Part shown: one piece after another, positions 3,147-64,000 of the stretch
How positions within the stretch are numbered: position 1 is the stretch's first letter
How the letters are laid out: each line of letters opens with the position of its first letter
Virus record (IMG/VR): IMGVR_UViG_3300046501_000082
Location: 28,875-92,874 of that record
Origin: a virus
Length of the DNA stretch: 64,000 nucleotides
Direction: 5' to 3' (one strand)
Notes under the pieces: model-generated
The model's database searches: none
The model's input: only the letters and a program-made list of their open reading frames with translations
Told to the model about the DNA's origin: nothing
Made by a program: the position numbers and the translations under genes

Positions 3147-4115
3147 CTATGCTGTCTTATACATTTCATAAGCTGGTGTAAAGCTACCGTCTAAGTTTGC
3201 TTTCGCATACTCAACAATACTACGCTCAAAAAATGATCCAAACGTCTTGCCCATCATTGCATCAATCCAAGGAAGAGGGTTTTCTCTAACGTTCCAGTTC
3301 TTCTTAAAGCCTAGCTGTTGAAGACGGTAATCAGCTACGTATCGAACATACTTTTTAACATCTTCTTTAACTAGGTTACTAACGCCACCCATTTTAAAGA
3401 TTCGATCAACAAAGGCATCTTCTAATTTAACAAGTTCTCGTGCTGAAGAGTAGATGTCCTTCTTAAACTCATCATTTACAATCCGAGGATGCTCATCTAA
3501 AAAGATGCGAAACAATGCAGTGTTACCTTCTACGTGAATTGACTCATCAACCATGCTCCACCGAACAATGTCACACATTCCGGGAAGCTTCCCAAGACGG
3601 TCAAAGTTCAGCAGAATAGCGAAAGATGCAAACAAACTTACACCTTCCATCATTGTCTGTTTAGCTAAATACTTTGCAAAGTCTGTATGGCTTTTACCAA
3701 TACTCTCAATCATGTACTCATGCTTTTCTTTCATTTCTACATAATCAAGAAACTCATGATAAAAGCTTTCGCCAAAACCCATTGTATCCGAGAACAAAGC
3801 ATATGCACGAATATGAGTACCTTCCCTAGCAGCAAAGCTCCCTAACATAGAACGTGCTTCGTTGTTCTTGATGTAAGGAATAATCTTGTCGTAGTAGCCC
3901 CCGCCAACATTGACATCTGACTGAGTGAACAAACGAAAGATATTAGATGTCAGGTTCTTTTCTTCAGGTAGAATCTTACCATTTTTCCACTGCTCTACAT
4001 CATTGTTCAGCTTGGCTTCATGCTCATACCAATGCACTTTCTCATGCTTAATATTAATATCCACCAAGCTGTGGTACTTTGGCGAATAAATTTCGCTGTA
4101 TTCTGTGAGGCTCAT
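3147..4115 (-). CDS. nrdB: Class I ribonucleotide reductase, small subunit
   Basis: 322 aa, NrdB/R2 family. The subunit holds the di-iron/tyrosyl radical that starts NDP reduction in NrdA. Iron ligands are seen in REGTH (E-x-x-H, with Tyr four residues after the His, as for E. coli Y122), MEGVSLF and DESIHVEG. N-terminal HWYEHEAKLNNDVEQW is typical of the family. The length is a little shorter than E. coli NrdB (376). It lies 20 bases downstream of nrdA in the same operon and is followed by a terminator at 3106-3131. Confidence 0.95.
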   Translation of the reverse strand: MSLTEYSEIYSPKYHSLVDINIKHEKVHWYEHEAKLNNDVEQWKNGKILPEEKNLTSNIFRLFTQSDVNVGGGYYDKIIPYIKNNEARSMLGSFAAREGTHIRAYALFSDTMGFGESFYHEFLDYVEMKEKHEYMIESIGKSHTDFAKYLAKQTMMEGVSLFASFAILLNFDRLGKLPGMCDIVRWSMVDESIHVEGNTALFRIFLDEHPRIVNDEFKKDIYSSARELVKLEDAFVDRIFKMGGVSNLVKEDVKKYVRYVADYRLQQLGFKKNWNVRENPLPWIDAMMGKTFGSFFERSIVEYAKANLDGSFTPAYEMYKTA

Positions 4116-4134
4116 TTGTGCTCCTTAATTAATT

Positions 4135-6018
4135 TCAACCGCTGCAAGCTGCGCATTCCTCACCAACTTCTGGTGTCCAGTCTGTAATAGCCTTACGTTC
4201 AATTTCCTTAGCAACGTCCGCATTGATACCCCGTTCCATGCGAGCATAGTACATACTCTTGGAGTAAGGGGCAAGCAAAAACTTCAAGTGTACGGAGTTA
4301 AAATAACTACGATCACAGCCCGCAGGGTAGAATGTATTCAAGCTTTGGCTTTGGCAGACATACTGTGCCCGTGCATCTGACTGCTCAATAATCCAATGTT
4401 GGTCAATCTCCGCGCCTGTCTTAAACACAAGCTTATCTTTTTCTTCCATAAACTCTAGGTTTTGAACGCTGCCATTATCTTTAGCAATAAACTTTTCTTG
4501 ATCGTCAACCCAACTTACAACTTTATCTTCTGCAATCCCCAGCTTACTGGCATACTCTGTCAGCTTAGCTGTCAAGTGGGGATTCTTGACTGTGAATGTT
4601 CCTGCACGGGTTGAGTGGCTATACACATTCCCGCTCACAGGCTCAATACTAGGACTCTCACCAAGAATTACCGCGTTGTTGCTGTTAGGTGCAATAGCCA
4701 TCAATGCTGAGTTACGAAGACCTGACCCAATCATGTCAGAAGGTTCGCCACGTTCTTCTGCAAGCTTCTTGCTTTCAGCTAAAGCCTTTTCTTTAATCAG
4801 TTTGTAAATCTTATGTGTCTCTTGAATCGCGCTACCAAAACCACCACCCTCCATTGGGATACCCTTGGATTGTAGGTAGTAGTGCCAAGAAAGTGTGCCA
4901 ATTCCGATGGCTCGCTCCATCTTAGCTGAATAGGTTGCTTTACTAAGTTCTTCTGGTGCATTATCAATAAAGTATTGAAGTACATTATCCAGAAACCGGG
5001 TCAAGTCTTCTACAAGATTAGTATCTTTCCAAGCATCGAATTTAGCTAAGTTAAGGCTGCTGAGGCAGCAAACAAAGGTTCGGTCTTCATTTGTAGGAAG
5101 AGTCACTTCAATACAGATGTTGCTTCCCTTAATTTCCAAACCTTTATCTTTCTGTGTTTGTGGCAGGGCACGGTTTGCAGTATCAATTTTAAAGATGTAT
5201 GGTTCACCTTGCAAAGCACGGGCTTCAAGAATCTCTTCCCATATAGCACGAGCCTTAACAACTTCTTTGATATCCCCTGTATGTGGGCAGACCAACTCAA
5301 AGTCTTCATCATTAACAACAGCTTGTGTAAATTTATCTGTCACATTTACAGCATGGTGAAACTGAACTCGGTTATCAGCCTTACGGGCAGAATCACCACC
5401 ACTCGGAATACGGAACTTAATGTGTTCCATAATATCTGGGTGACTTACATCCATGTAATACGCACAAGCACCACGCCGTGTTTTACCTTGCTTGTAATAG
5501 CCAATGATCGCATCCATTGTTTTCATATATGGAATTGGACCCGGAGCTTTATCCGTAGTCGCACGGATGCTATTATGAAGGCCAACACCACCACCGGCAA
5601 CAGACAAAGCAGCCAGTTCAACGTTAGCTTTCATTTGCCCTTTGATGCTGTCAGGAACCTCTAGGGCAAAACAACTAATTGGCATTGCTGCTGAGTGTTC
5701 ACCTCCCCAGTAACCTTCTGAGACAGACTTATGTCGCTCGTTATTTTCAAAGTCTTTCCACTCACGATCAGGAACTTTCTGCAACCATTTACCGACTGGT
5801 GCGTTACTAAGGACTGGACTGGCAAACATGAACCAACCCTTGTGTGCAGCCTCATAAATACGTTGAGCTAGATCGTAGTCCCCATAACAGAAAGCTTCGG
5901 ATGCTCGTGCAAGTGCATCGTTAAATGTCTCACCTTTTTGAAGATAAAAACCATCAAGTAGTGCATTAGAAAAATCATTAATATATTCTGGTTGGTGTTC
6001 AAATTTTTTAATGCTCAA
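4135..6018 (-). CDS. nrdA: Class I ribonucleotide reductase, large subunit
   Basis: 627 aa, shorter than E. coli NrdA (761). The first 80-100 residues expected for an ATP-cone regulatory domain are absent or reduced, so dATP inhibition may be lost (inference). GSNICIEV carries the active-site N-x-C-x-E motif. The C-terminal CAACSG is the Cys pair that re-reduces the active site. The start is a TTG preceded by AAGGGG. It acts with NrdB to supply dNDPs for phage replication. No thioredoxin or glutaredoxin gene is seen nearby. Confidence 0.95.
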   Translation of the reverse strand: MSIKKFEHQPEYINDFSNALLDGFYLQKGETFNDALARASEAFCYGDYDLAQRIYEAAHKGWFMFASPVLSNAPVGKWLQKVPDREWKDFENNERHKSVSEGYWGGEHSAAMPISCFALEVPDSIKGQMKANVELAALSVAGGGVGLHNSIRATTDKAPGPIPYMKTMDAIIGYYKQGKTRRGACAYYMDVSHPDIMEHIKFRIPSGGDSARKADNRVQFHHAVNVTDKFTQAVVNDEDFELVCPHTGDIKEVVKARAIWEEILEARALQGEPYIFKIDTANRALPQTQKDKGLEIKGSNICIEVTLPTNEDRTFVCCLSSLNLAKFDAWKDTNLVEDLTRFLDNVLQYFIDNAPEELSKATYSAKMERAIGIGTLSWHYYLQSKGIPMEGGGFGSAIQETHKIYKLIKEKALAESKKLAEERGEPSDMIGSGLRNSALMAIAPNSNNAVILGESPSIEPVSGNVYSHSTRAGTFTVKNPHLTAKLTEYASKLGIAEDKVVSWVDDQEKFIAKDNGSVQNLEFMEEKDKLVFKTGAEIDQHWIIEQSDARAQYVCQSQSLNTFYPAGCDRSYFNSVHLKFLLAPYSKSMYYARMERGINADVAKEIERKAITDWTPEVGEECAACSG

Positions 6019-16574: not shown

Positions 16575-19250
16575 TTAATGGCAGTTATCCCATCCACTAC
16601 CAATCACATAACCTGACGTCAATTCTACGTTAAGTTTGTAATACTGTCCAGCTTCTTTTACAGATTCCGCTGCCAATTCCCCAGCACGGCACCATGAACG
16701 AAAGAAACGTCCGTCTTTTGCATGACCAACATCACTCCAGATACGGCCTTCTTCACAGAAATCTTTTGCTTCTTTCTCTGTATCAAACATCTTAAACTTA
16801 ACTAGGCTTCTTGTCAACTCTAATTGCGCTTCATCCATTCAGTTATTGAGTTCGCTAAACTCACTCCGCTTTCACGGAGAATCAGACTATATCACAAACT
16901 CTTTCGAGTTTCCTGCCGCTTCGAGTGCGCTTGCACCCTACTCCCTTCCGGGATAGTCGTTACACGTTCCTATTTCTAGGCTTCGCTCGGGATTGGCATG
17001 GCTTTCGCTTTAGCTTTCCCCGAATTCAACAGGTTATTCAATGCACTTCACAATGCAAGGCCACAATTATTTATGGTACGCAATCATTTGTTGGCAATAC
17101 TTTTTACTTTTCCAATCGTCTTTAAAGAAATCTACCGCGAACCCTTCGGCTTTAAGCTTACGATCATGAATAACCATCGCTCGCTTTGCACAAATTACAC
17201 CTGCGCTTTGAAATCCACTGTTAATCACATTGCCTTTTGAACGAATAGGAAGTTTACGTTTATCAATACCTACAAGAAACTTCTTCTGTCCTGTTGTTTC
17301 CCAGTATTGCTGCATACGTTCTTTGAGTTCTTTGAGCGGATTAGCCAAAGTCCAGAACTCATCAAAAATAATCTGTGCCGTTTCTAGGTCACAACCAACA
17401 ATTTTAGCTACCCGTGCAACTTGGGCGTTGTAACTACATCCGTACTTCACAGATTTAGCGCTATTTCGTGGGAAATCACGGCCAATAATCTCTGTAATAC
17501 GGCGGGCCAATACAGAGTGACAATCATTAGGCTTTTCAGCAGTCAGACTTACACCGTACTCCGGGCCACCTTTATAACGGTACACATAATGACTTTCAAT
17601 CTTAGCCTCAAGGCTGTCAAAATCATAACCAAGTTGTACATAGCCTTCACCAACACCAAACAAACTCCTCATTTCCTCCCCGTAAAGGGATGTATTTCGT
17701 GGAATGTTCGCCACTAAACGATGCTTGAATCTGCTGGTCCCAGCGCCGCAAGTATCTGCTGGTGTTGGAATACGTCCATCCTCACGAACGTTCGGCATAA
17801 AACCACTTTCATGCTCTTCGTCATTTTCCTCTGGATCATACCCGCCCCCCAGAATACTATTACGGCGGTGGCTGTAAGTCAAGAAGTCAGCAAGCTTTCT
17901 AGCGTGTGGAAAGCTACTTTCTAGTGCAATAAGACCGGGGCAGATCTCTTTCTCTTGTCCTACCGTCAGCGTGGGGTTGGTTAACACTTTAAAGCTTTTA
18001 GCGCACCCTTTTGCCAACAACTTAGCCTTAATGTTGTTTTTATTAAGGTTCAAGTGCTCTAGACGATATTTGCAGAAAGGACTTGCTAGTGTCTGTTCAA
18101 CATATCGTTCTACTGCTGCTTCGAACTTCTCCTGTGTCAGACGGTTCTTCTTGGCATCACAGGTAAGATCACGCTCCTTCCAAGCGGAAGGGTTCCAGTG
18201 AAACTTAGACACTAGCCATTCTTTAATGTGGGTTGTGTCTTTCAAAGTTGATGGTACTTCAGTGAGCAATGGTACAGCAGGCATTGGTAGTGGATACTCT
18301 TTACCAAAGATTGTTGCTACGTTATCTTCACTAATTGTTCCTTCGTGTTTAGCTACAAACTTCTTAATGTTTTCATTAAGTTCGCCAGACTTCTTAAACT
18401 GTTTTTCCGAAGGTGTGTAGAAATCCATGCGCGTCTTAGCCAATGGTTTTGGTGGCAAGACAGGTTCAACTTCACTGCGCAAGGCCTCAAGTTTGATGTC
18501 AAGATCACGAACCAGTTCAATTGCACGTTCTGTCTTAAAGTCAAATCCTCGGTGCTCTTGGCGAGTGATAATCTCCGCAACAGACTTTTCCAGACTGATA
18601 GCGTCTAACCAATCCCAATCACCTTTCTCAGCCTCCAGCATCTTGTAAACTTTTGTGTTCGCCAAGACATCTATGATGCAATAAAATAACATGTCCGCTG
18701 CAAAATGTTTGAAACGAATAGATTCGTGAATGTGTTTACGAAAAGAATACTTGCGCAAGCCAGCTTTCTCAGACAAAGAGTCCAAGCTATGTCCGCCCAA
18801 CCTATCCGGGTTAAGCGCTTTGCTTATTACAAGTGTATCTTCAAATAGAACAGGTTTACCGCACCAAGTATCTTGTTCAACGGTGAAGTCCATATCTTCT
18901 TCAATCTTACCAACCATCAAGTCAAAATTGATCTGGTTGTGAGCCACCACTTTATGCAGTGGGTTGTTTAGGACGTAAGCCTTAAACTCAGCAATAGATC
19001 GCTTTTCAAACTCAAGAGGTTGATAGTTTTCAAGAAGATATGTTTGCCCCTCAATTACCTCTTCGTAACGGCGACCATCAAGAATATATTCAGGACCGTC
19101 ATAAAAGGCAATAATCTTACCAGTTTGATGTTCTTCCACAACAGTACAATGAGTCTTAAAAGTCTCTTTCAGCTTGAATGGGCTGCTTGTGTAATCGATA
19201 GCCTCTTGATTCAAAAGACCTGTTGTTTCCCGGTCCCAAGTAATATCCAA
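16575..19250 (-). CDS. Family A DNA polymerase, split by a group I intron
   Basis: Join 19250..17073 and 16835..16575, giving 812 aa. The start is the TTG at 19250, with AAAGGAG overlapping the end of the upstream endonuclease gene. Exonuclease motifs: WDRETTGL, VVAHNQINFD and YCIIDVLANT. Polymerase motif A is LGYDFDSLEAKI and motif B is RNSAKSVKYGCSYNAQ. Motif C is rebuilt only by splicing: exon 1 ends in AYH and exon 2 starts DEAQLEL, giving HDE. The rebuilt C-terminus SGWDNCH matches the T7 gp5 ending (NWAICH). This is the replicative polymerase. Unspliced, the frame stops two codons into the intron and lacks a catalytic Asp. Confidence 0.92.
16836..17072 (-). ncRNA. Group I intron in DNA polymerase (237 nt, no ORF)
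   Basis: The boundaries restore the polymerase frame between His and Asp of motif C. The exon ends CCAT and can pair with GTGG eight bases into the intron, giving the expected U-G pair at the 5' splice site. The intron ends in G. The core is visible as GACTATC-type and GATATAGTC segments (minus strand, 16958-16952 and 16893-16885) that form P7, with GAGTAGGGTGCAAG and CGAAGCGG between. Closely similar to the two terL introns. Confidence 0.88.
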
Positions 19251-19254
19251 TTTC

Positions 19255-19899
19255 TTACTCCTTTGTTCTTCCAAAATACTTAATCTCGCCAGCAGCTCTG
19301 GCATCACAGGCTTCTTCGAAGGTGTCAAAATAGCCTAAGTTAATATCTTTTCTTTCAACCCCAATACGGGCACGCCACTTCTGTTGTTTTTCAACCCATG
19401 CCACACCTGTTCTGCCAGACTTGTTGTTTTTAAAGATACCTTTATTAAAGCTTTGAACTCTCCAAGTATCCCATACGCAGTTTTCTCTAGAGTAACCAAG
19501 TTTAGGATCTTCTCGTTCTAAAGTCAAACCCTCTTTATACGAGTCACCCATATCCCTCAAGAAGTTTTCAAACTGACGCCAGTCCTCTTGATCCAAACCA
19601 GCGCCCTTTCCTCCGTACTTATCCCAATTGGGGTCGTTTGGATTGGTGCAGCGTGAAACCATTGAACCCCATACAGCATAAATCTTAGATTTCCACATGC
19701 CATGTGTTCTATAAGAGCGTTCTGCTCTAAGGCAACCACACGATTGAGAATTTCCGTCTTTAATTTGATCCGCCCTAACTACTTTTTCTTTACCACAGTC
19801 GCACAAACAATTCCAGTAGGGCCTACCATTTTTAGATTCAGCAAAACTTATGATCGTCCATCTGTTATATTTATTACCTGTCAAGTCTTCGTGAGCCAT
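19255..19899 (-). CDS. Free-standing homing endonuclease with AP2-like domain
   Basis: 214 aa. N-terminal module: GNKYNRWTIIS...NCLCDCGKEKVV...SCGCLRAE, a zinc-binding unit frequent in phage AP2/HNH proteins. Middle: VWGSMVSRCTNPND...GLTLEREDPKLGYSRENCVWDTW, an HNH-like part. C-terminus: SGRTGVAWVEKQQKWRARIGVERKDINLGYFDTFEEAC, an AP2 DNA-binding domain. It is wedged between the primase-helicase and the intron-bearing polymerase; its end supplies the polymerase ribosome site. It may help move the polymerase intron (inference). Confidence 0.85.
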   Translation of the reverse strand: MAHEDLTGNKYNRWTIISFAESKNGRPYWNCLCDCGKEKVVRADQIKDGNSQSCGCLRAERSYRTHGMWKSKIYAVWGSMVSRCTNPNDPNWDKYGGKGAGLDQEDWRQFENFLRDMGDSYKEGLTLEREDPKLGYSRENCVWDTWRVQSFNKGIFKNNKSGRTGVAWVEKQQKWRARIGVERKDINLGYFDTFEEACDARAAGEIKYFGRTKE

Positions 19900-25019: not shown

Positions 25020-25135
25020 CTGTGATCCAGTGTGAAAAAGTGGCTTTAGGGAATGCCCTACAGGCCACGTATTCATTGACTTTGTTATCATTTTTGTACC
25101 CATATGAACAGAAGAGGAAGAAGGAGTTGGAATAG
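25016..25135 (+). CDS. Small hypothetical protein
   Basis: 39 aa; a mildly hydrophobic centre and a basic tail (EQKRKKELE). Its TAG overlaps the GTG of the polymerase-like gene. Confidence 0.5.
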   Translation: MTVIQCEKVALGNALQATYSLTLLSFLYPYEQKRKKELE

Positions 25136-26418
25136 TGATAGAAGATGTAGAAGAGTACAGCCTTAAGAGTAGATTGTTAACCTACAATATTAATATCTCT
25201 ACATCTGTAAGGAATAAGATTAGATACATAAATAAGATAGAAGATAAAGAGTTATCTGCTGTTATCATAGTTAATCTCATATCTTGTGTTAAGAGACAGG
25301 AGAAGCTTCTGTACTCACGACATAAGGGTAATCACAGTACGTCTGTAACTAAGTACAACAGACGTGGTATACAAACACACAGACTGTTGAAATGCATTGA
25401 CACCCTTGAAGCTTTAGGCTATATTGAGAACTTCGTGGGTAAAGGTCATATAGATAAGGAAAAGAGAATTATGTCTTACATCACACCTTCTGAAGCCTTT
25501 ATTGCTGAGTTCTGTTCTAAAGATGAGGAAGTACAGAGCGCTATTGCTGCTTATAATGCCAGCCTTCAGACTATTATCTTGCGTAATGAATATGGTAAGG
25601 CTATTGACTATCAAGATAATAAGAATATTAAAGCTGCACGTAAGGTTGTAGAGAAACTAAATCGTATTAATGAGTTGCATGATATTAAAGATGGTGAAGG
25701 GAATGTCATGACTAACATCTATTCTCGTATTTTTAATAAAGATTTTGAGCATGGTGGTCGCTACTTTCATTCGGATGCTTTGAAGATTAAACACAAGAAG
25801 ACTAAGGCCCGTCTGGATATCACTATCAATGGTGAGCAGGTTGTAGAAATTGATTTTTCTAACCTTCACTACAGGCTTGCCAGTTTGATGGAACAGATAA
25901 GTATGGAGAACCTTCCACTTGATGTGTATATGGATATTCTGCCCGAGTGTTTGCAGAATGATGATCACCGTGAATTGATTAAACTTTCTATTAACATTCT
26001 GTTCAACTCTAAGACTGAAGATAGTGCTGATCGTGCAATAAACAAAGAGATTACAAAGTTTAAATCTCAAGGTTGGAATATTGATAAGAGTCTAAATACT
26101 GGTAAAAAGGTACGAGAACACATTTACATCATGACACCAGATTTTATTCCTTGTTATTGCCGGGATGATTCGTTCGGTCTTGCATTGCAGAACGCAGATT
26201 CATACCTTGCACAGCGAGTAATTGAGAAATTTGTTGACGAAATGAAGCCAATCTTGCCTATTCATGACAGTTTCGTGGTCAGGATGTCTGACGTGGGGCT
26301 TTTGGAGAATGCAATGGGAGACGCTTTTCGAGAAGAATTTGGAATTGCTTCGCTAATTCCCTTGAAAATGTCTTGGAAAGATGCTAATGTGCTTCAAGAA
26401 AGTAAAATCTTAGCGTAA
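25135..26418 (+). CDS. Divergent polymerase-palm protein A
   Basis: 427 aa, GTG start coupled to the preceding stop (TAGTG). The N-terminal 120 residues look like a winged-helix unit (RRGIQTHRLLKCIDTLEALG). Then comes HGGRYFH and motif A VVEIDFSNLHYRLASLM, a Lys/Asn helix where motif B is expected (ELIKLSINILFNSKT), and motif C LPIHDSFVVR. The Asp of motif A and the Asp of HDS fit the two metal ligands of family A polymerases. The residue five after the first Asp, the steric gate (Glu in PolA, Tyr in PolB), is His. At about half the size of a full polymerase it has no exonuclease. A paralogue lies at 54250-55596. Whether it makes DNA or RNA is unknown. Confidence 0.6.
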   Translation: MIEDVEEYSLKSRLLTYNINISTSVRNKIRYINKIEDKELSAVIIVNLISCVKRQEKLLYSRHKGNHSTSVTKYNRRGIQTHRLLKCIDTLEALGYIENFVGKGHIDKEKRIMSYITPSEAFIAEFCSKDEEVQSAIAAYNASLQTIILRNEYGKAIDYQDNKNIKAARKVVEKLNRINELHDIKDGEGNVMTNIYSRIFNKDFEHGGRYFHSDALKIKHKKTKARLDITINGEQVVEIDFSNLHYRLASLMEQISMENLPLDVYMDILPECLQNDDHRELIKLSINILFNSKTEDSADRAINKEITKFKSQGWNIDKSLNTGKKVREHIYIMTPDFIPCYCRDDSFGLALQNADSYLAQRVIEKFVDEMKPILPIHDSFVVRMSDVGLLENAMGDAFREEFGIASLIPLKMSWKDANVLQESKILA

Positions 26419-28702: not shown

Positions 28703-28914
28703 GTAAAATAAATACAACTAAAGTTTATGTTATCCGAGATAGTGTTTCTGGAGAGCTGCTGAGGTTCAGTTCTAAGTGTGGTTGGTGCTCACCTATGGCT
28801 GCAAAGAATGCTTTCAACCTTGCCATGTATTCTTATTACGACCTAGACTATTTTGGGGATCGTAAAGGATTGTTTGATAAACAAGATCAATTTACAATTG
28901 AAGAAATAACCTGA
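28699..28914 (+). CDS. Small hypothetical protein
   Basis: 71 aa; KVYVIRDSVSGELLRFSSKCGW then a Lys/Asn helix, a fold-like pattern for tiny early proteins. Confidence 0.6.
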   Translation: MSKINTTKVYVIRDSVSGELLRFSSKCGWCSPMAAKNAFNLAMYSYYDLDYFGDRKGLFDKQDQFTIEEIT

Positions 28915-39507: not shown

Positions 39508-40466
39508 CCCTAGCAGGAAATTATTCTAGCACCGCATTGTGGGGCTTAGTCTATTAACACTATTAATAAATACCCTCTCTACTATACTTTCTGTTGATAG
39601 TGCAAATCCCTTCCAAACCCTTTATCTGTATAGTATTAATGACTACAGTGATAGAGTCTTTTTGACTGCTTTCTAGTGTCTATCAGTGTCGGAGAGATTG
39701 ACCGGTAGGTTAAGCTCGATACACATTCCCTCCTATAACCACCCTCATCCCAGCATCACACTCCCACTTATCTGTCAACAATTATCTAATCCAATAGCTT
39801 TATATCATCACAATGTATTAAACGATAGTTTTTGTCTAAGAGATGTCAGTCGACTTGCACAGGACATACAATGTGCTAAGACACACAGACTACAGGGTAC
39901 AGTCAAGTCTTATCTTCCCATTGTCCATTAACTATGCCTATCGGGTAACATTTAACGGAAAACCAGTTCAACGAACAGTTACATTATGACTCAGTTAGTT
40001 ATGAGTGATATCTATCGATCAGTGAGTTGGTATAGGATATGCATGGAATAGTCTTAGGTGATTGGTCTAGACTGATTGATAGAGTATAGAAGTAATCTAT
40101 CATATTTGAACGGTTTATAGAGATTGTCTATGGTGGGTAGCTAGAGCATTAAGCACCTCAGCAAGATATCCAGTAATTTTGAAAGTATGAACCCTTATAA
40201 ATAAAGGCTTTCAAGGATATTTGCACACAGAAAAGTAAAGAGTCACTAATACAAGCTGACTCCCAAAATAGAAAAATGGTTGATATTTACAACTAGAAGA
40301 ACCCTTAAAGATGAAGAATAGAAGTAAGAGATAAATAAGAAAAGAGTGCTTTTTGCTCTTACTTAAAACATATTTCTATACCTACTTCCTTTAGGGCAAC
40401 ACCTCTGTAAGCCACGTAGTACAAGGGCTGAGGTGTAATTTTAGTACTTTTAAACAGAAATAAATA
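39508..40466. other. Gene-free convergent junction, possible origin or regulatory region
   Basis: No credible gene on either strand for about 960 bases between converging blocks. CTATC/GATAG occurs at least eight times between 39590 and 40110, in both orientations. A weak GCACCGCATTGTGGGGC hairpin lies near 39525 and AAGAG...CTCTT near 40342-40360. No origin protein site is known to me. Confidence 0.5.
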
Positions 40467-41774
40467 CTAAGTCATATTTCCACCCATCCAATCTTGGAGC
40501 AAGCCTCTCATACGACTACTGGGAATATATAGGTTTATAGGTTCATCTTTCCTAACCCTACTCCTGTAGATCCATTGTATAAGCTCACTCAAAGGATACC
40601 TATTCTGATCTGGTGCAAACTCAACACCTCTGTCTAACAAATATTTGTATGGTTCAGGATGTATGTAAGAGTTATAGATATAGGCTAACTGACTTGTTTC
40701 CATGTAGTCGTTCACAGCTTTAGTATTGTGAGCAATATGACACTTAGTATATCCAGCACCTTTGAATGTACTAAAGGCTTCTCCTAAACAAGTCCATAGC
40801 CTGTCTTCTGTGTTTGACTTGCCATAGGTACTGTTTCTAAAGTAGTTACCAAGGTTAGCCTTCACTGTAACAGCCGTAGCGCTATCTTTCGCATACCTCT
40901 TCTGGTCACTTACTGAGAAAGCAGTTTCTCGATCACCAATACGATTCATCTTTGGATTGTCAATGATGTTAATCAAATCAAAGATGTTAGATTGCATTTG
41001 AATACCTAACTTTGTTTCGTGCTGAATACCGTAGAAGTCTAGATATTTCTCAAACATAGACCCTTTGAACAAGTAGGTTAATACTTCAACCTTGTCGAAT
41101 GCTTTGATAAATTCAATAGGATATTCCCACATGAACAAGTCACGATTACCTTTCTCATCTGCAATGAGTACAAGACTGCCATTGTCACATAGAGCTTTGA
41201 TTTGCATATCCCAGCTAAAGCCAGAGCTATCTAGGTCTTTGATATCATCAATTGGATAATCTTCATTCCAACGCAAAAGCCCTAACTCATCCTCGTAGAT
41301 AACATTAGAGCCTAGTAACATCTTACGTCTGTGCATCTTACAAGGGTGTGGTCTAATACATTCAAGCTCCTCATCAATTACAAGAGTGTAGCCAGCGTCT
41401 TTTACATCCTTCACTGTTTCAGGTGTGAAGAGCTTAAGTGCAGCATGTGTTGTTACAATATCACGTCCCTCATGTACAAGCTTTGCAATGTGTTCAACCT
41501 TTGTCTTGTAACCAGAGATAGGGTGTTCAAACCTACGTCCAGATGCACTACAGCCTTCTCCTGTGTATATTATATTTCCATGATCATCTTTGCTGGGTAG
41601 TTGTTTATCTGCACTGTCTTTATCAATCACTGTGCCAGCATATCTGTGACACTCAGCCAAGAAAGGAGTAACAACAATAAATCTCCGATCTTTGTCAGAG
41701 TTATTAATCTTATCAATCATTCTCCATGATTTACCCGTTCCGGGAAGTTCATCGTACACAATTACTTTAGTCAT
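40467..41774 (-). CDS. SF2-type DEAD/DEAH-like helicase
   Basis: 435 aa. Walker A DELPGTGKSW at the N-terminus, ITTHAALKL-like motif (IVTTHAALKLF), and motif II LVIDEELE. The C-terminal LIQWIYRSRVRKDEPINLYI resembles the motif VI block of phage/plasmid DEAD-like helicases. Probably unwinds or remodels nucleic acid. First gene after the gene-free junction on this strand, last in transcription order. Could work in replication initiation or with the divergent polymerases (inference). Confidence 0.7.
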   Translation of the reverse strand: MTKVIVYDELPGTGKSWRMIDKINNSDKDRRFIVVTPFLAECHRYAGTVIDKDSADKQLPSKDDHGNIIYTGEGCSASGRRFEHPISGYKTKVEHIAKLVHEGRDIVTTHAALKLFTPETVKDVKDAGYTLVIDEELECIRPHPCKMHRRKMLLGSNVIYEDELGLLRWNEDYPIDDIKDLDSSGFSWDMQIKALCDNGSLVLIADEKGNRDLFMWEYPIEFIKAFDKVEVLTYLFKGSMFEKYLDFYGIQHETKLGIQMQSNIFDLINIIDNPKMNRIGDRETAFSVSDQKRYAKDSATAVTVKANLGNYFRNSTYGKSNTEDRLWTCLGEAFSTFKGAGYTKCHIAHNTKAVNDYMETSQLAYIYNSYIHPEPYKYLLDRGVEFAPDQNRYPLSELIQWIYRSRVRKDEPINLYIPSSRMRGLLQDWMGGNMT

Positions 41775-42057
41775 AATTTAGTTTACTACCCTCCTGTCGT
41801 TTACCATAATAGTATGCTTCCTCTGTTCGTTGCATAAAGATTCTGTCTAGCTCATCTGGATAGTACTGTTTCACATGCTCTGCTTTCCAACCGGTGATCT
41901 TCTCAGCCAAACGCTTCTCTGTCTCATTCATGTGTACAGTTCCTTTTTGAAACTCCCACTCAGCTCTGTAAGAGCAATGAATCGAATGCCATTTAGGTTC
42001 AGCACGGTCTATGCCACAGTTACACCACATAGATTGAATTAGTTCTTCAGTTGTCAC
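41767..42057 (-). CDS. Hypothetical Cys/His protein
   Basis: 96 aa. WCNCGIDRAEPKWHSIHC offers metal ligands; the rest is helical. Overlaps neighbours at both ends. Confidence 0.6.
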   Translation of the reverse strand: MTTEELIQSMWCNCGIDRAEPKWHSIHCSYRAEWEFQKGTVHMNETEKRLAEKITGWKAEHVKQYYPDELDRIFMQRTEEAYYYGKRQEGSKLNYD

Positions 42058-42602
42058 AGATCCAACTCCTTAGCCATACCATAAACCATTGTCTTCACTT
42101 CCTCAGCACTAGACTGCACATCCGTACCATCTACTAATCGCATCAAGAACCCTTTAGGGTATGTAGCCTCTGTCTCAAGCCCTAAAGCAACACCAGCAAC
42201 CAACCCTGCCATATCCATTCCTGTCTGACCTCCACTTACAACCTTTGTAATAGGCCAGTGTGTATTTACAAGCTTTAATATATCATACACATACTGGTTA
42301 GCTTCTTTCTGTGTCACACCTTTCTTTTGTAAAGTGTAGATACTATTACCTGCGATGTTCACAGTGTGACAGTCATATTTCTTAAGCATCGAATATAACT
42401 TACGTGCGGGTATGGCTTCATCCCAGAAGATGATATTGAATTCTTGCTGTACAATCTTACCCTTTGCGGCCTTGTGCGTAAGACGTTCTCCTGCTGTGTT
42501 GAAGTCTACAGCAATAGCCAGCGTACACCCCTGAGCTGCATTGTGGTATGTGCGAGGTGCATAGCTTTGACTCTTGTGTTCATTTACAGTTAGAGTATTC
42601 AT
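42054..42602 (-). CDS. SLOG-fold protein (YpsA-like)
   Basis: 182 aa. The C-terminal half contains VVSGGQTGMDMAGLVAGVALGLETEATYPKG split by known spacing: SGGQTG-x-D-x-A is the YpsA/DUF2493-type nucleotide-binding signature of the SLOG superfamily. The N-terminal half (LAIAVDFNTAGERLTHKAAK) may be a second small domain. SLOG proteins bind nucleotides or NAD-derived signals, so it could affect nucleotide metabolism or host signalling (inference). Confidence 0.65.
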   Translation of the reverse strand: MNTLTVNEHKSQSYAPRTYHNAAQGCTLAIAVDFNTAGERLTHKAAKGKIVQQEFNIIFWDEAIPARKLYSMLKKYDCHTVNIAGNSIYTLQKKGVTQKEANQYVYDILKLVNTHWPITKVVSGGQTGMDMAGLVAGVALGLETEATYPKGFLMRLVDGTDVQSSAEEVKTMVYGMAKELDL

Positions 42603-54101: not shown

Positions 54102-54130
54102 TTGACACTGACAGAAATGTAGCGTAGTCT
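54102..54130 (+). promoter_or_regulatory. Rightward promoter
   Basis: TTGACA, 17 bases, TAGTCT. A 120-base leader leads to the polymerase-like gene. Confidence 0.65.
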
Positions 54131-54249
54131 TGCTCATATCAGTGCTGCCTTAAAGCAGTGCATAAAAAGAATTATTTCCTGAGAGCCTTTATCTATAAGG
54201 CTTACAGCGATTTATGGTCCACTACCTAGGAGGATAAGGAATATGATGT

Positions 54250-55596
54250 ATGAGGATTGATTTATGGAGTATAGATAAGAAAGAGAGAGTACAGATACAA
54301 ACTAAGCTTACACACTTTAACATCCACTACAATCAGACTAAGCAATACAAACACATTGTAGACGAGATAATGGAGTTAGGGGCAGGGAAGAAAGAAGTTT
54401 GGTGCGTAGTAACAAATATAGCTCGTGCTCTTAAATACAGAGCTATTGGTTTATCTGTCCCTAGGCAGCGTAGTGCCTATTCCAACAACGAACAGGGGAT
54501 ATCTCAGCGTAGGATGGTTATTCTCCTTGACAAGCTTGAGGAGAATGATTACACTGATAACTTTACAGGTGGTGTTGTAGATTGGAAAGAGATGGATACA
54601 GTACAAAGTTGTATTGTGTTTAAGCAAAAGCTTCTTGACTTGTTCATTGGTGTAGATGTGAGTCAAGAGCAAGACTATTTCAATGTTGTTGAGATTAAAG
54701 ACAGGGAGACAAAAGAACTCAAGTCTAAATCCGGTGTTCGTGGTGTTAAGATTATCACGGAATACATGAATGCCTACAATCAGCAACTAATGAATACAGA
54801 AATTAGTGATGAGACAGGATTGTTATCTGTTCAACAATATAAAAGAGTCTTCTCGGACAATCTCCGACAGGGCGGAAGGATTTACAACACTGCTGGAGGT
54901 GTTCAAGTGAAGAATGAGGAAGAGCGTAGTTATATGAAGATTAATGGTGAAGAGATTGTTGAGCTAGACTTCAAGGCCATGCATCCAAGCCTTCTGTATG
55001 AGCAAGAGTATGAAGAGAACTCAGAAGATATTGATGATTGGATTAAGAACACTTGGGGTGGTGAGTATAATCCTTATGGTGCAAAGATGCCTTTTCTTAA
55101 AGTGAATGAACAGAAGGTTGAAGCGTTTAAGAATACATTTGGTCTCTCAAAGTACGATCCTATTCGCAACCTTAATAAGCATGCACTGATGGTCAGCCTG
55201 AATGCCAAGACATATCAGAAAGCCTATGTGCAAGTGACGGAGGAGTTTCGTGCTGATCAACTTGGATGGGATAACCTCACTAAAGATGCTAAGTTTTATG
55301 GTATTGAGTCAGTGGGTAACTTTCCGGGACACACAGTTTGTCAAGCTGTAGCTGCACATAATAAACCAATCGCTAAATACTTCTTTAAGGATCAAGGTAT
55401 CAAGATGCAGTATTTGGATAGCGAGATTGTTGCAGATGTGTTGAACCGGTTGCTTATGGAAGATGAAGTGTTGCTTCCTGAGCATGACAGTGTGATTGTT
55501 CGTGCAAGTATTAAAGACAAAGTGATTGGCTATATGCGTAGTGCCTATTTAGAGTTAATGGGTTCTGATAAGTTTTGTTATTTGGAGGTTAAGTGA
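54250..55596 (+). CDS. Divergent polymerase-palm protein B
   Basis: 448 aa. AGGAGG lies 16 bases upstream, and a five-codon frame (ATG ATG TAT GAG GAT TGA) overlaps the start. The N-terminal region has a winged-helix-like unit (QRRMVILLDKLEEND). Then GGRIYNTAGG, motif A EIVELDFKAMHPSLLYEQ, a motif-B-like helix RNLNKHALMVSLNAKT, and motif C LLPEHDSVIV. The D-x4-H-P-S arrangement recalls PolB DxxSLYPS, while HDS recalls PolA. The steric-gate position (D+5) is His, as in protein A (25135-26418). Function unknown; a nucleotidyl transferase role is inferred. Confidence 0.6.
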   Translation: MRIDLWSIDKKERVQIQTKLTHFNIHYNQTKQYKHIVDEIMELGAGKKEVWCVVTNIARALKYRAIGLSVPRQRSAYSNNEQGISQRRMVILLDKLEENDYTDNFTGGVVDWKEMDTVQSCIVFKQKLLDLFIGVDVSQEQDYFNVVEIKDRETKELKSKSGVRGVKIITEYMNAYNQQLMNTEISDETGLLSVQQYKRVFSDNLRQGGRIYNTAGGVQVKNEEERSYMKINGEEIVELDFKAMHPSLLYEQEYEENSEDIDDWIKNTWGGEYNPYGAKMPFLKVNEQKVEAFKNTFGLSKYDPIRNLNKHALMVSLNAKTYQKAYVQVTEEFRADQLGWDNLTKDAKFYGIESVGNFPGHTVCQAVAAHNKPIAKYFFKDQGIKMQYLDSEIVADVLNRLLMEDEVLLPEHDSVIVRASIKDKVIGYMRSAYLELMGSDKFCYLEVK

Positions 55597-55597
55597 A

Positions 55598-56020
55598 ATG
55601 AACATCCCAGACGAAGTAGTTAAAATTGAAATTAGCCACAACACAATCCCAGCAAATCCTTACACAGCAACATATTGTGTATTGGTTAATGCCACAGTTG
55701 AGGAAGTGATTGAGTGCGCAGAGAAGTATCCAAAGGCGTTTGTGTTTACATTTGATACAACTCCAGTAGACAGGATAAAGCAAGATACGCTGGATTACAC
55801 ACCGCTACAGCCTGTTATTGAAGAATACATGGATGAAGATGGTGATATCATGCACCGATATGCAGAGGGTAGCTATAAACCTTGGATGGAGCGTTTAGTG
55901 CAGCGTTTGTATATTGGGAATTTCAAAGCTGAAGATCATAAGACTGCTATTGATCAGTTTGTGGAAAACAGTATTGGTAAAGATCAGGAATTAATTTATT
56001 CAAAAGGTTACAATAAATGA
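55598..56020 (+). CDS. Hypothetical protein
   Basis: 140 aa, MNIPDEVVKIEISHNTIPAN, with GGAGGTTAAG upstream. Follows the polymerase-like gene and overlaps the next by 4 bases. Unknown. Confidence 0.65.
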   Translation: MNIPDEVVKIEISHNTIPANPYTATYCVLVNATVEEVIECAEKYPKAFVFTFDTTPVDRIKQDTLDYTPLQPVIEEYMDEDGDIMHRYAEGSYKPWMERLVQRLYIGNFKAEDHKTAIDQFVENSIGKDQELIYSKGYNK

Positions 56021-57581: not shown

Positions 57582-57653
57582 TGGCTGATAGTGAAACGGT
57601 TATCACATGTCCCTTTGACGGACACATTCTCTGTTCGAATCAGAGTCGGTCGG
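57582..57653 (+). tRNA. trnQ: tRNA-Gln (anticodon TTG)
   Basis: D arm GTGA/TCAC with GG in the loop, anticodon arm TGTCC-CTTTGAC-GGACA (anticodon 57615-57617), four-base variable loop, T arm CTCTG-TTCGAAT-CAGAG. The acceptor TGGCTGA/TCGGTCG pairs with three G-T wobbles. G discriminator as in tRNA-Gln. CCA is not encoded (CCT). The anticodon loop equals that of T4 tRNA-Gln. It reads CAA, so it does not explain the amber genes. Confidence 0.85.
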
Positions 57654-62099: not shown

Positions 62100-64000
62100 C
62101 GATAATGTTGTATCGCCAGCCAGCCCCAAGCAAGCAGCCTTTCTCAAGGCTGTTTCAGAAAATGATATAGTCCTCTTCGGAGGCGCGGCTTAACACTATG
62201 GGTCGCGTAAAACCCCTCTAATTGCTGGAACTCTCAAAGAGACAATCAGCAGCGAAGGCTTAGAAATAAGTAACGTTCAGAGACTATCGAAAAGACACTT
62301 TAAAGTGGAACTTAGTAGAGTAGGTTGCAAGTGCAATCGAAACGGGGGGCAACTTAATAGTTGAAGATATAGTCCGATTCTTTCAGCAATGGAAGGAAGT
62401 TTAACGAACTTCATAAGTATTTGGGTAGTGGTAAAAGTTATCTGGGGGTAATGGCTTTTCTTCAGTGGGCACAAGATCCCGCTATGGAAAAGTTTCGTGG
62501 AGTTATTCTGCGAAGGACGATGGTCCAAGTGACAGGCCCCGGCGGTCCGGCTGAGACTGGACAAGAGATTTACCAACAGTTTGGTGCTCAGTTTAAAATT
62601 AAAGACAGTAAATTTATTTTTCCGAATAAAGCTACTATTGTTTGTAAGGGCTGTGAGCAAGAGAAAGATAAGCATAACTTCCAAGGCTGGCAAGTTAGTG
62701 CATTTCTAGTTGACGAGGCTCAGCAGTTCGAAGAAAGTCAAGTGCTTTATTTCATCTCGCGGATGCGTACAGCAGCACCAATGAAGCCTGTGATGATGAT
62801 GACGGCGAACCCTGATTATAACAGCTACCTCCGTAAGTGGCTAGAAGATGCAGGGTATTTGGATGAACGTGGCCTCCCTCGTAAAGATCGTGATGGTAAA
62901 CGTATGTGGTTCATCCGTATAGACAACCAAATGGTCTGGAATGAATCAAAGGAAGAGTTACTTGCGACCTACGGTGAAAACTGTGGTCCTATGTCATTCG
63001 TTTTCCTGCCTGCAAATTGTCACGATAATCCAGTTTTGCTTCGACGTGATCCATCCTACGCCCATAAACTTATGAATATGCCTCGCGTAGAAATGGAACG
63101 CCTTTACCTCGGCTCGTGGTATGCGAAAGAATCTACAAGTGGCTTCTTTAAGAAAGAGTTTTGTACTCCCGTAAAACTACACGAACAGAATATCGTCTCT
63201 TACTGCCGTGCGTGGGATATCGCCGGAAGTTTGCCCAGTGAGGCTATGCCAAATCCTGATGCAACAGCTGGCGTCTTGATAGCTAAGACAAAATCTGGAA
63301 GATATATTGTTGTGGATGTAGTTAGGTTCAAAGCTAGGTTTGGTGAAGTCATGCAACGTATGATTGAAACTGCCAAATCAGATCCTGAAGGAACTCAGAT
63401 TCTTCTACCTCAAGAGCCTGGCCAAGCCGGAAAAGCAGCAGGTCAAATGATGATTAAAGAACTCCTTGAAGAAGGGTTCTATGCTCGCATGCGTCCAACT
63501 AACAAGTCTAAGGTAGTTCGTTTCCAACCCTTCGCAGCAGCAGCCGAAGCTGGCCTTGTTGACTATGTAGAAGATGCTTGGAACGATGTTTACTTCGACG
63601 AGTTGGAGCAATTTGACGGAAGTCGAAAAAATAAAGACGATTTACTAATCTTGGTCGTCTATAAACCCATTGAATTCGGTGGACATCTCATTAGAGACAA
63701 TACCGAGCGAAGCTAGAGAAATCTAGAACGTGTAACGACTATCGAAAACACACAGTAATGTGGAAGTGAGTAGAGTAGGGTCAAGTGACCCGAAGCGGTG
63801 GGCAAACAATTTTGTTTGAAGATATAGTCTCCTCTATATAGTGATATATAGCAGTCCCAATGGACTGAATAAGAATTAACGACTCTTATTTAAGATGATG
63901 CAGGTTGATGCAACAAGTGATGCTTTCATTACACTCGCACAGAAAATTATGATTCCAAACTTCACCTCCGGTTTAATCTCAGCAAACCTGACTAGACCAA
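62092..64000 (+). CDS. terL: Terminase large subunit, split by two group I introns (partial)
   Basis: Join 62092..62190, 62424..63641, 63895..64000 and onward. Exon 1 gives MSDDNVVSPAS...DIVLFGGAA and exon 2 begins GSGKSYLG; together they form Walker A FGGAAGSGKS. Walker B is FLVDEAQQF near residue 130. MMTANPDYNS is the coupling region. The nuclease domain has RAWDIAGS with its first Asp. Exon 2 ends NKDD and exon 3 continues MMQVDATSDAF, restoring the C-terminal acidic motif. Motor and nuclease for packaging. The 3' end lies outside the window. A TTG at 62421 would make a product lacking the P-loop start and is not the real start. Confidence 0.92.
62191..62423 (+). ncRNA. Group I intron 1 in terL (233 nt, no ORF)
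   Basis: Exon end CGCGGCT pairs with GGTCGCG at 62201-62207 over 7 bp, with the U-G pair at the splice site. CACTAT (62194-62199) can pair with the first bases of exon 2 as P10. P7 strands GACTATC (62282-62288) and GATATAGTC (62366-62374). Last base G. Removal joins the Walker A codons in frame. Confidence 0.92.
63642..63894 (+). ncRNA. Group I intron 2 in terL (253 nt, no ORF)
   Basis: Exon end GACGAT pairs with GGTCGTC (from 63653) with U-G at the splice site. P7 strands GACTATC (63737-63743) and GATATAGTC (63821-63829); GAGTAGGG and CGAAGCGGTGGG between them match the other two introns. Last base G. The exon frame continues as MMQVDATSDAF. Confidence 0.9.

Follow-up and report, generated by a model that had tools for sequence, protein, structure and literature searches.

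Two TV-Pol-like minimal polymerases of a phage, candidate site-directed primase-polymerases downstream of a conserved palindromic element

TV-Pols were defined as minimal polymerases of mobile elements and were reported from Paracoccus denitrificans, Rhodobacterales, Geobacter, Vibrio and one phage (Iyer, Abhiman and Aravind, 2008; PMC2579912). One member, CCPol of SCCmec, belongs to the A-family DNA polymerases and, together with its partner MP, which CCPol requires for priming, synthesises DNA primers de novo (Bebel, 2020; PMC7581432). According to the same 2020 paper, no other TV-Pol member had been biochemically characterised (PMC7581432); PolA-SSB pairs (SSB, single-stranded DNA-binding protein) related to CCPol-MP have been reported in Bacillota (Rice, 2023; PMC10061031). 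Here we describe a gene, B, its homologue, A, and a partly palindromic element upstream of each, in a 64,000-nucleotide stretch of viral DNA (the window; positions 28,875 to 92,874 of the 92,874-bp IMG/VR virus record IMGVR_UViG_3300046501_000082). We consider it probable that B is a phage-borne TV-Pol, most likely a primase-polymerase that serves the phage and is probably directed to specific sites, and that A does the same job independently. The two genes are as follows.

54250..55596, + strand: TV-Pol-type polymerase B, a single ATG open reading frame of 448 aa that fills exactly this interval; winged helix at about residues 47-124, hairpin Arg R210, motif A D240, fingers R306xxxK310, motif C H412-D413-S414
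25135..26418, + strand: TV-Pol-type polymerase A, 427 aa, a homologue of B from the other clade

The translation of B reads LRQGGRIYN, motif A (VELDFKAMHPSLLY), a Lys/Asn helix (RNLNKHALMVSLNAK), QYLDSEI and then PEHDSVIV (motif C), and the GGR, motif A, Lys/Asn helix and HDS of the original prediction are present as described. A and B align over nearly their full length (BLASTP, 23% identity, E=1e-15), so that the two copies are indeed homologous, as had been claimed. Both match PHROG phrog_4756 ('unknown function'; 7e-77 and 3e-56), as do all relatives scanned. No Pfam or NCBIfam family names A or B, and two relatives are annotated as 'DNA polymerase' in public records.

Residue conservation was counted over a diverse set of 67 members of the family. 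The hairpin Arg (R210), the motif A Asp (D240) and both the His and the Asp (D413) of motif C are invariant (67/67), R306 and K310 of the RxxxK fingers helix are each present in 66/67, and the conserved fingers Asp position holds D in 55 members and N in 5, B among these. Because the catalytic residues are invariant, a TV-Pol of this kind is expected to be catalytically competent. GGR, motif A, the RxxxK helix and HDS, in this order, form a complete core like that of superfamily A and T7 RNA polymerase; the motif set as a whole is a divergent superfamily-A (TV-Pol) core, and therefore not the mosaic of a PolB-like motif A and a PolA-like motif C that had been proposed. A family-B DNA polymerase was rejected as a candidate, as motif C is HDS and not YxDTDS, and the fingers carry RxxxK and not Kx3NSxYG. 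PolA has DYSQIELR as its motif A, which the DFSNLHYRLAS of A resembles.

Models were built with AlphaFold from alignments of family members; that of B was confident (predicted local distance difference test, pLDDT, 89.9; predicted template-modelling score, pTM, 0.84) and that of A fair (pLDDT 82.1, pTM 0.75). For both models, the top Foldseek matches in the PDB were nearly all family-A DNA polymerases (probability 1.00; best E=1.8e-6 for B and 3.0e-6 for A), among them DNA polymerase I, the apicoplast polymerase, Bst, Taq, Klenow and Pol theta, and the matches for B included human mitochondrial RNA polymerase. In the B model (H, helix; E, strand), R210 is located in the strands E197-202/E208-213, and helix H166-181 stands before this hairpin, where the TV-Pol thumb would be expected as two antiparallel helices. 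The N-terminal elements H47-62, H74-77, H86-98, E102-106 and E119-124 fit a winged helix, and the best PDB sequence match of the profile in this region, a weak one, was 1xma, a 'predicted transcriptional regulator' (E=0.02). In the model, then, the N-terminal domain of B looks like a winged helix, in keeping with the original prediction. No nuclease family was matched in B (448 aa; PHROG and Pfam searches). No family-A polymerase was matched when PDB sequences were searched, either with B by itself or with profiles, and neither A nor B matched PF00476 (DNA polymerase I family) at the curated cut-off, the likeness being one of fold only.

Set against its published description, TV-Pol is the best-matching known family, and the sequences and models suggest that A and B are its phage form. 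Bacterial relatives were retrieved with a DNA pattern for GRFYGxWWQ and were mostly Alphaproteobacteria among the matches listed, including taxa on the 2008 list such as Paracoccus denitrificans; patterns made from the B clade gave no match in a genome scan, and the whole-family profile was too divergent for a contig scan. The genes near these relatives, named from sequence by eye, include tyrosine integrases at at least 34 loci, serine resolvases at at least 12, and restriction–modification genes of type III (at least 7) and type I (at least 3), neighbours that agree with the TV-Pol context of Iyer et al. (2008).

Profile comparison, which also counts in favour of the superfamily-A assignment, gave its better match to T7-like enzymes: QYLDSEI..HDS aligned with HSQDGSH..IHDS of T7-like RNA polymerases at E=1.6e-4 with a modest probability of 50%, and the match to PolA was weaker (E=0.0098, probability 4%). 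Ser follows the motif C His-Asp in 62/67 members, giving HDS as in T7 RNA polymerase and not the HDE of DNA polymerase I, and a recognised T7-like RNA polymerase was not found in 34 of the 35 phages examined. A and B could on these grounds be T7-type single-subunit RNA polymerases or RNA primases, transcribing from or initiating at the palindromic element, which we consider unlikely. The steric-gate position at motif A is Glu in PolA and Gly in T7 RNA polymerase; here, at D+5 of motif A, it is a bulky His in 56/67 members, which suggests use of deoxynucleoside triphosphates (dNTPs) and argues for their selection. In addition, the promoter-recognition domains of T7 RNA polymerase are absent, the PDB fold matches are mostly DNA polymerases, and neither A nor B matched PF00940 (T7-like RNA polymerase) at the curated cut-off. 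No T7-type RNA polymerase was found in the virus record; of the additional 'T7-type' polymerase that had been postulated, what holds is a separate polymerase of another kind:

17067..19328, − strand: replicative family-A DNA polymerase (PF00476), separate from A and B

The earlier suggestion that A and B have a function of their own, apart from that of the replicative polymerase, is plausible.

Searches with B or a relative (tblastn) found 245-290 phage records, with hosts mainly Vibrio, Rheinheimera, Aeromonas, Pseudoalteromonas and Shewanella, and with gp100 of ICP1 among the proteins found. Judged by B, Pseudomonas phage vB_PsaM_M1 is the closest of the annotated relatives (62.5% identity; its protein is labelled 'DNA polymerase'); it is recorded as a complete genome and has a single copy. 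Among 35 phage records, TV-Pol was present once in 16, twice in 17 (2 of these with a fragment) and three times in 2. In the tree (support by SH-aLRT only), A and B fall into separate, well-supported and deeply split clades: B groups with proteins of Aeromonas phages, and A joins Vibrio phages 1.121.O and HNL01 in the part of the tree nearer the bacterial TV-Pols. Sister phages have two conserved slots about 30 kb apart, defined by flanking genes, and each slot can hold an allele of either clade. The A slot holds A in the window, G006 and G007, a relative of A in G008 and B-clade alleles in G001, G002, G003 and G005; the B slot holds B in the window, G004, G008 and M1, another B-clade type in G001 and G007, and A-clade alleles in G003 and G006 (flank matches are weak for some slots, namely the A slots of G002 and G008). 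In sister phages, then, the two copies may both be A-type, both be B-type or be mixed, in either order, and some of these phages have just one copy. Slots and tree together reject a recent duplication within the phage, and with it the view of A and B as paralogues that arose in this way. ICP1 isolates show a similar replacement: isolate M4 has an allele with an altered motif C at the place of gp100, between conserved neighbours. A C-terminal TV-Pol fragment at G004:58391-58498 (L248, G004:C1:57000-60000) is probably a decayed copy; a strong palindromic element lies about 1.4 kb off.

Such exchange could also mark selfish or horizontally exchanged, homing-gene-like cassettes, with a polymerase that serves the cassette and slots that are insertion sites. 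The integrative elements that carry the bacterial relatives, the 1-3 copies per phage with alleles of either clade in the same two slots, and the G004 fragment retained not far from an element copy are all consistent with this view. We nevertheless find it improbable: the regions read show no integrase, resolvase or transposase next to the phage copies, and the flanking genes are conserved, with alleles replaced at fixed slots while the upstream element is kept. This element and the nearby promoter are located as follows (element sites from a de novo motif, rescanned).

54177..54204, + strand: partly palindromic element of B, −73 to −46; TCCTGAGAGCCTTTATCTATAAGGCTTA
25056..25083, + strand: copy of this element upstream of A, at −79 to −52; CCCTACAGGCCACGTATTCATTGACTTT
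40403..40430, + strand: extra copy, stronger than any other in the window; convergent intergenic region that lacks a TV-Pol gene
40189..40216, − strand: weaker extra copy in the same convergent intergenic region
54102..54130, + strand: sigma-70-like promoter of B, TTGACA-N17-TAGTCT, −148 to −119

Of 13 non-redundant loci in this phage group, 12 had the element, of about 28 bp, at about 50-150 bp upstream of TV-Pol. The motif, found de novo in the upstream regions of both slots, reached an expectation-maximisation log-likelihood of 151, compared with 73-83 in 8 shuffled sets (40 random starts for the real set, 15 for the shuffled sets). Sites of at least 11 bits in the window, the 64 kb that the scan covered (the first 28.9 kb of the record lie outside it), numbered four (25056, 54177, 40403 and 40189), and the reversed window gave 0. 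In a held-out set of 207 kb around 25 other phage TV-Pols, with the motif trained on this phage group only, 6 of 8 matches of at least 15 bits fell within 300 nt upstream of TV-Pol, a zone that makes up 3.6% of the sequence (p=6e-8, assuming independence, a few of the phages being related). The clear cases were Vibrio phage 1.121.O and Aeromonas/Pseudaeromonas phages. The element was not seen at many Vibrio-phage copies, ICP1 gp100 included, nor at the A-slot copy of G007, and the bacterial TV-Pol loci listed showed no enrichment (4 matches in 879 kb). Pairing between the halves of the element was imperfect and above that of shuffles (9.64 vs. 8.62, shuffle maximum 9.27). An RNA hairpin was rejected despite this pairing, and a DNA site is preferred, because the folds are not uniform. 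Since the promoter of B lies upstream of the element, the element would be in the predicted transcribed 5′ leader. A stricter consensus scan did not list this promoter, and no hexamers of comparable quality were found upstream of A; of the original prediction that both genes are promoter-proximal, the part on B holds.

The proteins might instead be mainly DNA-binding regulators, a winged helix on a polymerase-derived body, that act for example in autoregulation or in immunity to superinfection and owe their specificity to the diversity of alleles. The gene is first in its operon, the element lies in its leader or promoter region, the alleles diverge strongly, and ICP1 isolates differ in the allele found at one and the same place, all of which would fit. 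This role we judge very improbable, for regulation alone would not maintain catalytic residues that are invariant in 67 members. That A and B form an obligate heteromer, as was first suggested by the presence of both in this phage, is scarcely credible, as any pairing occurs: some sister phages have a single copy (M1 has one), some have both copies from one clade, and in some the members of a mixed pair have exchanged slots.

Under the primase-polymerase reading, the core of B would comprise a thumb remnant, the hairpin Arg, a palm with two Asp and the RxxxK fingers, with a winged helix in front and no exonuclease. B would start or extend short DNA strands, apart from the replicative family-A DNA polymerase, and its winged helix would direct the enzyme to specific duplex sites, the palindromic element upstream of B being the best candidate; A would do the same independently from the other slot. 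Priming by phage TV-Pols is suggested by analogy, from CCPol and from the argument of Iyer et al.; the winged helix, taken together with the element, suggests that TV-Pol binds the element and acts at specific sites. Several observations weigh against this reading. TM-scores to PDB polymerases are about 0.3-0.4 with large root-mean-square deviations, which is not decisive and is as expected for a compact, truncated and rearranged model core without an exonuclease. The only named polymerase-family sequence matches are weak ones to PF00940, in 3 of 67 members (best E=0.0019). No linkage to a D5-type helicase was seen, and no MP/SSB-like or other conserved gene was found 3′ of the phage TV-Pols, where the next open reading frames vary among sister phages, one weak pair excepted (MP-like proteins are poorly conserved in sequence). 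Motif C is altered in some phage members to YDE, FDE or HDD. Finally, the element accompanies A-type and B-type alleles alike, and therefore another conserved phage protein could bind it. The altered alleles are at L033 (ICP1 1992_Ind_M4), 3803-5107, and at L037 and L038.

The element may be an origin, an operator or a leader signal; its copies at 40.2-40.4 kb, which have no TV-Pol gene, favour a role of the element beyond autoregulation, and the pair at 40189-40430 may have origin or terminator function. A wider proposal, which we hold tentatively, is that many large tailed phages of Gammaproteobacteria have a TV-Pol module for priming at defined sites, made up of a minimal polymerase with a winged helix and of its cognate palindromic start site, with very divergent alleles swapped at fixed slots and a further start site (here at 40.2-40.4 kb) that is possibly a replication origin. 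Two-slot allele exchange and the conserved upstream element appear to be new, as no description of either was found in the literature searched, and they point to site-specific initiation or regulation. The assignment gives phrog_4756, which occurs in at least 290 sequenced phage records and includes gp100 of the cholera phage ICP1, a name and a testable activity, and links phage proteins to a little-studied polymerase family of mobile elements. If phage TV-Pols do prime DNA, common phages would have a third type of primase in addition to DnaG and AEP.

Other features of the window are listed here.

55598..56020, + strand: small open reading frame of 140 aa, starting 2 nt after B and not conserved behind sister-phage TV-Pols
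16863-17083, − strand: group I intron (Rfam RF00028) beside the DNA polymerase gene
62129-62396 and 63586-63851, + strand: group I introns (RF00028), both beside the terminase gene
57582-57653: tRNA gene (Rfam RF00005), between B and the terminase region
40467-41774, − strand: 435-aa protein, PHROG phrog_2467, unknown function, no Pfam match
42054-42602, − strand: protein with a circularly permuted YpsA (SLOG) domain, PF12694
50357-51532, − strand: HNH endonuclease (PHROGs), likely a homing endonuclease; its AP2 match is weak and falls below the cut-off

Compared with the TV-Pols described in 2008, the phage proteins have the same size (400-600 aa), minimal superfamily-A core, hairpin Arg, two palm Asp, and fingers Asp with RxxxK, and likewise no nuclease domain; their bacterial relatives also share the mobile-element setting, with integrase, resolvase and restriction–modification genes. 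In contrast, the phage copies stand alone, with no D5 helicase or recombinase seen beside them, are first in phage operons, and occupy two conserved slots with a conserved upstream element, and their N-terminal domain is winged-helix-like, whereas an all-helical fold was predicted for TV-Pol (PMC2579912). T7-like single-subunit RNA polymerases have a similar motif order and DS..HDS region, but the phage TV-Pols are half as long, have no N-terminal promoter domain and carry His at the steric-gate position. CCPol-MP, whose partner gene (MP/SSB) found no conserved counterpart behind the phage TV-Pols, shares with them an A-family catalytic core on a mobile element, is assigned to TV-Pol, and provides the precedent for priming by this class.
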